Part shown: one piece after another, positions 30,725-63,667 of the stretch
Layout: each line of letters opens with the position of its first letter
How positions within the stretch are numbered: the first letter of the stretch is position 1
Assembly (NCBI RefSeq): GCF_014640255.1
Contig: NZ_BMGP01000005.1
Coordinates: 108,880-172,879 of the forward strand
Direction of reading: 5' to 3'
Length of the DNA stretch: 64,000 bases
DNA from: Subtercola lobariae
Lineage (GTDB): Bacteria > Actinomycetota > Actinomycetes > Actinomycetales > Microbacteriaceae
Notes under the pieces: model-generated
Databases searched by the model: none
What the model was told of the DNA's origin: nothing
What the model saw: only the letters and a program-made list of their open reading frames with translations
Position numbers and translations under genes: made by a program

Positions 30725-30739
30725 GCTGCTCACGGCAGA
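30725..30739. promoter_or_regulatory. PopR-box-like palindrome upstream of the clpP pair
   Basis: GCTGCT-CAC-GGCAGA, 56 bp before the first clpP start. It matches the site TCTGCT-CAC-AGCAGA upstream of the XRE regulator at 13 of 15 positions. As I recall, the Streptomyces PopR site is TCTGCC-N3-GGCAGA; this copy keeps the right half exactly. The likely binder is the XRE protein encoded 1.3 kb downstream. Confidence 0.6.
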
Positions 30740-30795
30740 GCGGCTGACAGCAGCGTGGCGGTCTGATTAGTCGCTTGTACGAGCAGAGTCGAGAC

Positions 30796-31410
30796 ATGGC
30801 AAACGACAACCGGCCCCCCATGTTCACCGACACAATGCGGCAGCAGCTTCTGCTGAAACGAGTACTTGTTCTCGACGGAGCGCTCGACGACGACAACGGC
30901 ATGATGCTCGCGGCTCAGCTGCTCGGTCTGGCCGCCGAAGACTCGGCCACCGATATTGCGCTCTGGATTCACTCCCCCGGCGGCTCCGTGGCCTCGATGC
31001 TTGCGATTCGCGATGTGATGCGGCTTGTGCCGTGCGATGTATCGACGCTTGCTGTGGGGCTCGCGTGCAGCGCCGGCCAGTTTCTGCTGTCGTCAGGCGC
31101 ACCGGGCAAACGCGCTGCGCTGCCTCACGCGCGCATCCTGATGCACCAGGGCTCGGCGGGCATCGGTGGTTCGGCCGTCGAAGTGGAGGTTCAGGCGGCC
31201 GACTTGCGGCACATGCGCGAGACGGTGCTCGGCATCATCGCGAACGACACCGGGCAGCCGATCGACACGATCTTCGAAGATTCGCTGCATGACCGTTGGT
31301 TCACCGCCGCCGAGGCGAAAGACTACGGCTTCATCGACCACATCGCTGAGTCGTTCGAGCAGGTTCTGCCCGCCCGGCGTCAGCCGATCGGAATCGGGGC
31401 CCAGGCATGA
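30796..31410 (+). CDS. ClpP-family protease subunit (ClpP3-like)
   Basis: 204 residues from ATG 30796. The fold follows ClpP: IALWIHSPGGSVASMLAIRD (oxyanion loop), LAVGLACSAGQFLLSSG with the catalytic Ser, ARILMHQGSAG with the His, and the Asp region DSLHDRWFTAAEAKDYGFID. So the triad looks complete. It overlaps the second clpP-like gene by ATGA. With the convergent PopR-like regulator it resembles the accessory clpP3-clpP4 operon of Streptomyces rather than housekeeping clpP1P2, and no clpX is adjacent. Confidence 0.88.
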   Translation: MANDNRPPMFTDTMRQQLLLKRVLVLDGALDDDNGMMLAAQLLGLAAEDSATDIALWIHSPGGSVASMLAIRDVMRLVPCDVSTLAVGLACSAGQFLLSSGAPGKRAALPHARILMHQGSAGIGGSAVEVEVQAADLRHMRETVLGIIANDTGQPIDTIFEDSLHDRWFTAAEAKDYGFIDHIAESFEQVLPARRQPIGIGAQA

Positions 31411-32000
31411 GCAGCTACACGATTCCGAATGTCATCGCCCAGCATGCGCGCGGCGAACGGATCATGGATGTCTACTCCCACCTTTTGAGCGAGCGAATCG
31501 TCTATCTCGGCACGGGCATCGACTCCGGCGTCGCCAACGCTCTCATCGCGCAACTGCTGCATCTCGAGGCAGATGGAACCGGTCAGGAAATCAACATGTA
31601 CATCAACTGCGAAGGGGGCGATCTTTCGGCGATGCTCGCCATCTACGACACCATGCAGTTCATCAGCTCGCCCATTGCGACGACGTGCGTGGGCGAAGCC
31701 GTCGGGGCCGGCGCCGCGCTGTTGGCGGCCGGTGAACCTGGTCGGCGCGCAGCTCTGCGGCACGCACGCGTGGTGTTGCATCAACCCGCAGGGCAGGGCC
31801 GCGGAACCATTCCCGACCTGATTCTGCAGGCTGACGAGCTGGTGCGCATCAGGGCTGACCTCGAGGAGGTGCTCGCCGAGCACTCGGGCCAGAGCGTCGA
31901 AACCCTACGCCGAGACACCGACCGGGCCCGCATCTTCACGGCCGAGGCGGCGCTCGGGTACGGCCTCATCGACGAGATCAGGATGCGCCCGCGGCTCTGA
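31407..32000 (+). CDS. ClpP-like subunit lacking the catalytic serine (ClpP4/ClpR-like)
   Basis: 197 residues. It aligns along the whole ClpP fold: NMYINCEGGDLSAMLAIYDT then MQFISSPIATTCVGEAVGAG, then ARVVLHQPAGQG (His kept) and LRRDTDRARIFTAEAALGYG (Asp kept). Where E. coli ClpP reads GQAASMG this reads GEAVGAG, so the nucleophile Ser is Gly; the oxyanion loop is CEGG instead of SPGG. It should be an inactive subunit, like ClpR, probably in mixed rings with the upstream ClpP. Translationally coupled to it (ATGA). Confidence 0.88.
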   Translation: MSSYTIPNVIAQHARGERIMDVYSHLLSERIVYLGTGIDSGVANALIAQLLHLEADGTGQEINMYINCEGGDLSAMLAIYDTMQFISSPIATTCVGEAVGAGAALLAAGEPGRRAALRHARVVLHQPAGQGRGTIPDLILQADELVRIRADLEEVLAEHSGQSVETLRRDTDRARIFTAEAALGYGLIDEIRMRPRL

Positions 32001-32015
32001 CGGCGTGGCGAGCCT

Positions 32016-32411
32016 TTACGCGGCGAAGGCCAGAACCAAGGTGCTGCCGCTGTCGCTCAGTTGGGTCGAGGCTCGGCCGCCCGTGCCGTCGCGGCGCGAA
32101 AGCTCATGGCTCGACTCGAGTGAACGCGCGCCACGCAGCTCATTTGTGAGCAGCACCGTGAGGTCGAGAAGCGTCACTCCGAGCGCACCCGCAATGGCGG
32201 CGATCATCTCGCTCGAGGGCTCTTTGAGCCCGCGCTCGATTTCGGAGAGGTACTGCGCCGAGATACCCGCCCGTGCCGCTGTCTCTGCAAGCTTCTCGCC
32301 GTTGGCCAGGCGAAGCACCCGCAACTGATGCCCGAGCAGCTGTCGCCACAACGGTTCCAGCGCTGCAGGCGTGCGAAATCGAATGGGCATTGGCGCTTCG
32401 CTCCCGGTCAT
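32016..32411 (-). CDS. XRE-family regulator, PopR/ClgR-like
   Basis: 131 residues from ATG 32411 (a second ATG is at 32390). HTH: LGHQLRVLRLANGEKLAETA then ARAGISAQYLSEIERGLKEP and SSEMIAAIAGALGVTLLDL; the YLSEIERGxKEPSSE motif is typical of the ClgR/PopR group that controls clp genes. It ends LVLAFAA. As I recall, PopR and ClgR are themselves Clp substrates through C-terminal Ala residues, so this tail may be a degron. It converges on the two clpP genes and carries the same palindrome in its own promoter. Confidence 0.82.
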   Translation of the reverse strand: MTGSEAPMPIRFRTPAALEPLWRQLLGHQLRVLRLANGEKLAETAARAGISAQYLSEIERGLKEPSSEMIAAIAGALGVTLLDLTVLLTNELRGARSLESSHELSRRDGTGGRASTQLSDSGSTLVLAFAA

Positions 32412-32452
32412 GCCGCCAGTCAAACAGACCGTCGCTTTCGCCGCACCACAAT

Positions 32453-32467
32453 TCTGCTCACAGCAGA
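32453..32467. promoter_or_regulatory. PopR-box-like palindrome upstream of the XRE regulator
   Basis: TCTGCT-CAC-AGCAGA, a perfect 6-bp inverted repeat with a 3-bp centre, 41 bp before the XRE start and 9 bp past the gcvP stop. Nearly the same site precedes the clpP pair. Suggests autoregulation and shared control. Confidence 0.6.
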
Positions 32468-62980: not shown

Positions 62981-63667
62981 CTATGAGGCCGAGCCGTCGT
63001 CAGCCGAACTGCCTTCGCCAGCCGAGCTGTCGTCGGCCGCTGCAGTGTCTGCCGCAGCCCGAATCAGCAGCGCCGACGACTGCGATCCCGGGTCGCGATG
63101 ACCGATCGCCCGCTCCCCCAAGTAACTCGCCCGGCCCTTGCGCGCCACAATGGGCTCGGTGGATTCAGCGCCCTTCTCGGCGGCGTCAGCCGCGGCTTGT
63201 AAGATCTCGACCTCGTTCTTTCCGTCGGCGAGGGCTGCCGCCGCGGCATCCACTGCCGGAGTCCAGGCGTCGATCATGGTCTTGTCGCCCACCTCGGCCT
63301 TGCCGCGCAGCACCACGCCGTCACGGGCTGCCGTGAGCAGGGCGACGATGGCCGCGCCGTTCAACTCGGGTTCTTTACCCACAGCGCCGGCGGCCTTCAG
63401 GTACGCCGTACCGAGCAGCGGGCCTGAGGCGCCGCCGACCGTAGAGATGAGTGTCGTCGCCACAAGTTTTAGAGCATCACCTGGAACCGAATCTGGCGGC
63501 AGGTCATCGAGCTTGCCGAGAACGGCCGTGAACCCTCTGTCAAGATTCTCGCCGTGGTCACCGTCGCCGATTTCGCGGTCGAGGGTGATCAGTTCGACAC
63601 GGTGCTCAGAGATGACGCGCGCGCTTTGCCTGATCCAGTCGGTTACCCAGGTGATGCCCAAACTCAT
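62981..63667 (-). CDS. dhaL: dihydroxyacetone kinase subunit DhaL
   Basis: 228 residues from MSLGITWVTDWIRQSARVIS. The ADP/Mg site is in DREIGDGDHGENLDRGF (three Asp), followed by TLISTVGGASGPLLGTAYLK, GDKTMIDAWTPAVDAAAAAL and KGRASYLGERAIGHRDPGSQ. The last 20 residues are an acidic tail (DDSSAGEGSSADDGSAS) beyond the normal domain end. DhaL holds the tightly bound nucleotide in PTS-type Dha kinase. One base before dhaM. Confidence 0.93.
   Translation of the reverse strand: MSLGITWVTDWIRQSARVISEHRVELITLDREIGDGDHGENLDRGFTAVLGKLDDLPPDSVPGDALKLVATTLISTVGGASGPLLGTAYLKAAGAVGKEPELNGAAIVALLTAARDGVVLRGKAEVGDKTMIDAWTPAVDAAAAALADGKNEVEILQAAADAAEKGAESTEPIVARKGRASYLGERAIGHRDPGSQSSALLIRAAADTAAADDSSAGEGSSADDGSAS

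Follow-up and report, generated by a model that had tools for sequence, protein, structure and literature searches.

The locus described here lies in a 64,000-nt stretch of the 4.09-Mb genome of Subtercola lobariae (Microbacteriaceae), positions 108,880-172,879 of the forward strand of NZ_BMGP01000005.1 (contig C5), which we call the window. It contains two clpP genes, termed clpP-a and clpP-b, whose reading frames overlap, and a gene for an XRE-type regulator that runs convergently to the pair and ends 15 bp past the end of clpP-b (Table 1). The first-pass annotation of this DNA had described a clpP pair with a convergent XRE regulator. Both the gene content and the arrangement are confirmed, the former by Pfam, which matches both clpP products to ClpP and the regulator to HTH_3, and the latter by the gene limits, which place the XRE gene on the minus strand. 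The closest solved relatives of ClpP-a are the M. tuberculosis ClpP1 proteins and its N-terminus is of the ClpP1 type, whereas the N-terminus of ClpP-b is of the ClpP2 type. The genome encodes four ClpPs, namely the cassette pair on C5 and another pair on contig C7, where the housekeeping clpP1P2 genes adjoin clpX. Two long frames with Clp_N domains, ClpC/ClpB-like, are found on contigs C4 and C2. The regulator gene is adjoined by one of the two gcvP genes of the genome (32477-35431 in the window; the other is at C3:482250-483086), which belongs to the rarer type in the genus and has 81-83% matches in two genomes (G730 and G733). When the gcvP flank was considered as a possible empty site, no cassette was found within 1.5 kb of the closest gcvP in either of these genomes.

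Table 1. Features of the accessory clpP locus, with positions counted from the first letter of the window.
Feature	Position	Strand	Description
clpP operator	30725-30754		30-bp tandem of boxes 1 and 2, 15-bp period
PopR-type box 1	30725-30739		GCTGCT-CAC-GGCAGA (GCTGCTCACGGCAGA); direct reading; register of the first box of orthologous tandems
PopR-type box 2	30740-30754		GCGGCT-GAC-AGCAGC (GCGGCTGACAGCAGC); abuts box 1; 9/10 specified letters
Putative -10 hexamer of clpP-a	30784-30789	+	CAGAGT; ends 6 nt before the ATG; proposed from orthologs
clpP-a	30796-31410	+	ClpP1-type subunit, 204 aa; Pfam CLP_protease 1e-53
clpP-b	31407-32000	+	ClpP2-type subunit, 197 aa; Pfam CLP_protease 3.5e-61; aligned with solved ClpPs
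Codon of Gly100 of ClpP-b	31704-31706	+	GGG at the catalytic serine position; from reading and alignment with solved ClpPs
popR-like XRE regulator gene	32016-32411	-	131 aa; Pfam HTH_3 8.4e-12; C-terminus ...LVLAFAA
Putative -10-like hexamer of popR	32418-32423	-	TTGACT; ends 6 nt before the ATG; by analogy with orthologs
Single PopR-type box of popR	32453-32467		TCTGCT-CAC-AGCAGA (TCTGCTCACAGCAGA), plus strand reading

Orthologous loci were collected from 299 Microbacteriaceae genomes, for which the XRE protein and ClpP-b served as queries, and also from 396 genomes of the phylum, from named genomes and from 41 genomes belonging to a Streptomyces-like genus. From the named genomes the best 12 of 80 loci were used as orthologs and 7 others as an outgroup; from the Streptomyces-like genus 19 matches at 80-91% identity were used and the rest (50-57%) were taken as other ClpPs. 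The catalytic residues were compared in 77 loci: 43 from Microbacteriaceae, 12 named, 3 other and 19 Streptomyces-like. ClpP-b occurs in 42 of the 299 Microbacteriaceae genomes, including 2 of the 7 that were sampled from the genus of the window.

ClpP-b of the window carries a glycine in the place of the catalytic serine (GEAVGAGA) and retains the His and the Asp. The Ser-His-Asp triad of ClpP-a is intact in the window and in 77 of 77 loci, whereas ClpP-b lacks the Ser or the His in 76 of them, and the substitutions differ. The Ser is replaced in 56 loci (by Ala in 33, Gly in 22 and Trp in 1); it is present with the His lost in another 20 (19 to Gly, 1 to Ser); and a single locus (L174) has the full ClpP-b triad. 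The lost residue is the Ser here and the His in the Streptomyces-like loci. Four plasmid loci stand outside this count and are in line with it, their ClpP-a partner being intact in each case: the ClpP-b of Streptomyces fungicidicus has the Ser with the His changed to Gly, those of Tsukamurella tyrosinosolvens and Embleya have Ala at the Ser position, and that of Prescottella equi has Gly at the Ser and Glu at the Asp position. On a quick ClpP-b tree, in which the catalytic columns were kept and G026 and 12 of the 19 Streptomyces-like rows were left out, the least number of changes between the active and the dead state is two. Because one lineage keeps the Ser and the other keeps the His, at least two separate inactivations of ClpP-b are the simplest reading of these sequences.

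With a ClpP fold (Table 1) and a lost triad residue, ClpP-b has the sequence features of a ClpR-like subunit and is probably CATALYTICALLY dead. Its pairing with clpP-a in one operon suggests a mixed core of ClpP-a and ClpP-b. This backup core would probably be half dead, with one ring that cuts and one that does not cut and docks the ATPase. The role of an ATPase-docking ring is the most likely one for ClpP-b, because its N-terminus is of the ClpP2 type, because ATPases are described to dock only on ClpP2 in M. tuberculosis (PMC4416901), and because protease activity in Streptomyces is described to rest on the ClpP1 serine (PMC9765437). One could argue that the circuit is as proposed below and that the ClpP-b substitutions are harmless or a sign of decay, the core being then an ordinary or a dying protease: substitutions in a catalytic site are by themselves no proof of inactivity, and the L174 ortholog retains the full triad. 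However, the Ser has changed to Ala or Gly at 43 of 43 Microbacteriaceae places, and the frame, the fold match and the partner are kept in every counted locus except for the split frame of G026. Decay would not spare the rest of ClpP-b in this way, and we regard this explanation as unlikely. Of the 121 prokaryotic Clp proteases in a 2008 survey, 21 were listed as inactive homologs, and the text that was accessible did not tie them to PopR loci (PMC2605481). The portion of the literature that was searched held no statement on an inactive ClpP4, and a prior mention in the original PopR papers is possible.

The clpP operator was found to be a tandem. The first-pass annotation had presented one box upstream of the clpP pair and one upstream of the regulator gene, identical at 13 of 15 positions; this identity is correct, clpP box 1 and the popR box being mismatched at positions 1 and 10. 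The clpP site itself was only half seen, as box 1 holds and the picture of a single box does not: a second box, abutting the first, had been missed. The promoter comparison of orthologous clpP-clpP-xre loci, which had been set as a test that could refute the proposed circuit, found the tandem conserved: when scored against a relaxed consensus, 72 of 76 loci match it in 18 or more of the 20 letters (0.14% of shuffles). Under strict scoring, 39 of the 45 loci of another set have it (0.18% of shuffles), the 76-locus set being larger than this one and overlapping with it. The four loci under 18 letters are G111 and S192 (17 letters each) and L059 and L174 (15 each, a weak tandem); L226 was left out of the tandem counts as its upstream DNA is cut. 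The PopR motif given in the first-pass annotation, TCTGCC-N3-GGCAGA, agrees with a review, the accessible text of which gives a tandem site (PMC9775585). The operators of the Streptomyces-like loci, and among the named records that of plasmid p1 of Streptomyces fungicidicus, also follow the published PopR format. Upstream of clpP-a in three loci (L296, L297 and L039) there are apparently three abutting 15-bp boxes and not two.

The distance between this operator and the start codon is informative as to how the regulator may act. Forty promoters were stacked on the clpP-a start codon, five loci lacking the tandem there and one that was too short having been dropped. A [CT]ANNNT hexamer ends exactly 6 nt before the clpP-a ATG in 29 of these 40 loci, with other offsets having a mean of 0.38 loci each, and no Shine-Dalgarno-like stretch at the usual distance was seen by eye in the 20-nt leaders of the stacked promoters. 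Leaderless mRNAs are common in actinobacteria. The fixed hexamer together with the lack of a visible Shine-Dalgarno stretch suggests that clpP-a mRNAs are leaderless and start at the ATG. If they do, the boxes would occupy about -71 to -42, immediately in front of the -35 region, which is the position of an activator.

The popR promoter appears to repeat this layout with one box. Its box is separated from the popR ATG by 41 nt, a gap equal to that between box 2 and the clpP-a ATG. A full box is present upstream of popR in 37 of 39 Microbacteriaceae loci (1.7% of shuffles), and 31 of these 37 boxes are located 40-43 nt before an in-frame ATG, which matches the placement of clpP box 2. Many popR promoters of the family have a TANNNT-like hexamer close to the ATG; an automatic test for T[AT]NNNT at one fixed place found it in 9 of 33, a low number because the distance from the end of the hexamer to the ATG varies between 5 and 6 nt and the start calls are partly wrong. 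The geometry of the boxes suggests activation and, as the single popR box lies in the register of clpP box 2, self-activation of popR. Such self-regulation is not general, since elsewhere the full popR box was found in 5 of 11 named and 2 of 3 other loci and in 0 of 17 Streptomyces-like ones. The Streptomyces-like popR genes have several degenerate sites at a similar distance before a TANNCT hexamer. These sites, with 9 of 10 letters in 11 of 17 loci against 41% of shuffles, prove nothing by their number, and the case for an absence of self-regulation in Streptomyces is weakened by them.

The regulator could instead be a repressor on both promoters, with the cassette off until proteolysis removes it. 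XRE proteins are often repressors, and the popR box may be taken as a sign of autorepression. However, with a transcription start at the ATG, which the fixed hexamer suggests, the boxes would lie upstream of the core promoter, and the related PopR of Streptomyces is described as an activator (PMC9765437). Thus we find repression improbable. The likely mode of action of the regulator is activation held down by proteolysis, which refines the earlier picture of the circuit.

Which regulator this is was addressed by a quick tree of 93 columns with long branches. In it the window XRE protein, the other cassette-linked regulators and the Streptomyces-like PopR form one group (35 rows, SH-aLRT 95), and ClgR-like proteins, including a candidate from the same genome on contig C8, form a separate one (SH-aLRT 92). 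Therefore, the previous assignment to a PopR-like HTH subfamily is supported. The two C-terminal alanines are found in the window protein (...LAFAA) and in 67 of 71 cassette regulators. According to the accessible part of a review, it is very likely that ClpP1P2 substrates of this sort are marked for degradation mainly by two terminal alanines (PMC9775585), and in vitro degradation of PopR by ClpP1P2 together with ClpX or ClpC2 is reported (PMC9765437). None of 14 Microbacteriaceae ClgR-like proteins (L138 and L270-L282) ends in -AA, as against 8 of 8 Streptomyces-like ClgR proteins; thus the feedback on ClgR by proteolysis may differ in Microbacteriaceae.

That the window regulator would be the ClgR of this organism, or that ClgR would act on the boxes, might be argued from the best NCBIfam match of the protein, which is to ClgR (NF041677). 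This match scores 54.1 bits, under the cut-off of 170; the cut-off says little, because the Streptomyces-like ClgR candidates (121-124 bits) also miss it. However, the protein on contig C8 is a better candidate, at 99.1 bits, and groups with Streptomyces-like ClgR, whereas the window protein groups with PopR. Additionally, the motif reported for ClgR is a different one, GTTCGC-5N-GCG (PMC9775585). We therefore reject the identification of the regulator as ClgR and consider any ClgR-based reading of the boxes very unlikely. At 4 of the 43 Microbacteriaceae places there is no popR near the clpP pair. The unlinked XRE relatives in these genomes, four proteins, belong to neither the PopR nor the ClgR group; those in G118, G173 and G222 have only partial boxes, and that in G021 has a tandem.

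The box core itself, CTGCYN3RGCAG, occurs three times in the window against 0.38 expected, a number reached in 1 of 100 shuffles. Over the whole genome there are 42 perfect cores, compared with 82 for the reversed control pattern, and so no excess; the weight thus rests on position and conservation and not on abundance. The third core of the window (63328; box 63327-63341), identical to the clpP one on the opposite strand, was considered as a target and set aside: it lies in a dhaL-like reading frame, has no tandem partner and is probably a chance occurrence. The 39 cores outside the window all lie within open frames of at least 97 codons, a mechanical and weak test, as the popR box is itself under a spurious 306-codon frame, and no tandem neighbour with at least 8 of 10 letters was found for any of the 39. 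The nearest core to the housekeeping clpP1P2-clpX genes is more than 40 kb away. A geometry test applied to the 42 perfect cores, with a start codon 38-44 or 53-59 nt downstream and a hexamer, passes the clpP box, the popR box and one other (L150, C4:67812), which is a weak exception, being inside a 378-codon frame and having only a 79-codon frame downstream. The genome scan for further boxes that had been proposed thus finds strong promoter placement only at clpP and popR, and these two convincing sites, with the one weak exception, fit a self-contained circuit; the scan covers perfect cores, and targets with imperfect cores would be missed by it. The practically negligible explanation that the boxes are chance palindromes, which the lack of core excess and the third copy in a coding frame might favour, is rejected, as it is contradicted by the in-register conservation of the tandem (72/76) and of the popR box (37/39).

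Taken together, the conservation of the tandem, the grouping with PopR, the terminal alanines, the popR boxes, the fixed hexamer, the separate clpP1P2 and the loss in ClpP-b support a backup Clp circuit of the PopR-clpP3P4 type, and we consider its presence at this locus quite likely. The self-contained accessory Clp circuit suggested by the first-pass annotation is in this respect supported by the conserved tandem, the PopR grouping and the promoter-site scan. In S. lividans, PopR is reported to activate clpP3clpP4 and to be degraded by ClpP1P2 (PMC9765437). By our model, as long as ClpP1P2 and ClpX are working, the C-terminal -AA would mark PopR for degradation and the cassette would stay off. 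A block or an overload of ClpP1P2 would let PopR accumulate and bind to the tandem operator, where it would recruit RNA polymerase. This operator would lie immediately in front of the -35 region of the clpP promoter, which would be weak and is probably leaderless. PopR would also bind to the single box at its own promoter, which would amplify its own production. The product would be an alternative core of two subunits, in which ClpP-a cuts and the catalytically dead ClpP-b ring docks the Clp ATPase. Once ClpP activity is restored, PopR would be removed and the switch reset.

The cassette has also been seen in other lineages. In the quick ClpP-b tree the rows of Nocardia, Tsukamurella and Nonomuraea fall among those of Microbacteriaceae. 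Plasmid records with clpP-clpP-popR (L295-L298) come from Streptomyces fungicidicus, Tsukamurella tyrosinosolvens, Embleya sp. and Prescottella equi. The mixed tree and these four records suggest that the cassette has been transferred between lineages.

A circuit of this kind is already known from Streptomyces as PopR-clpP3P4, and here it is predicted outside that genus. The S. lividans system shares with the present locus a clpP pair whose XRE regulator belongs to the PopR group and has a terminal -AA, a tandem 15-bp operator and a second clpP pair elsewhere (PMC9765437, PMC9775585). Compared with the Streptomyces-like PopR loci, two differences were noticed beside that in the lost ClpP-b residue: the tandem is at about -70/-55 from the clpP-a ATG here and at about -127 to -184 there, and popR has a full box here, where those loci have the degenerate sites described above. 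The ClgR/clpP1-clpP2 system resembles the locus in having a related HTH regulator that activates a clpP operon, with a Streptomyces-like ClgR that ends in -AA. It differs in its separate tree group, in its motif (PMC9775585) and in the Microbacteriaceae ClgR-like proteins without -AA. The division of labour between two different subunits would be shared with the actinobacterial ClpP1P2 of M. tuberculosis and Streptomyces (PMC4416901, PMC9765437). However, both subunits of Streptomyces ClpP1P2 are described with a canonical triad (PMC9765437), unlike ClpP-b here.

Triad-lacking ClpP-b is found here within a PopR-gated cassette, in contrast to the ClpR-type paralogs of ClpP. The latter are non-catalytic, lack a full triad and occur beside an active partner in cyanobacteria and plastids, which are different lineages from that of the cassette.

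These observations lead us to a broader proposal, which we advance tentatively and with slightly more doubt than confidence. It could be that the PopR-gated core of actinobacteria is one-sided by design, consisting of a cutting ClpP1-type ring and a ClpP2-type ring that repeatedly lost its active site through different substitutions (of Ser by Ala, Gly or Trp, or of His by Gly or Ser) and retained ATPase docking alone. In Microbacteriaceae this core would be driven by a self-activating activator, making an all-or-none emergency switch that reads the failure of the main Clp system, and the cassette would move between lineages, also on plasmids.

The literature that was found on PopR describes Streptomyces, as far as its accessible text goes, and the present analysis would extend the circuit to a second family and several other actinobacterial genera. 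A testable promoter layout is provided, with two boxes at clpP, one at popR and a fixed distance to the start codon. The findings may also be relevant to antibiotics that target ClpP, as Streptomyces ClpP3P4 is reported to be insensitive to ADEP (PMC12607617). The repeated loss of one catalytic site bears on the question of why bacteria keep two different ClpP rings, and the cassettes of these organisms would offer natural cores where cutting and ATPase docking may already be separate.
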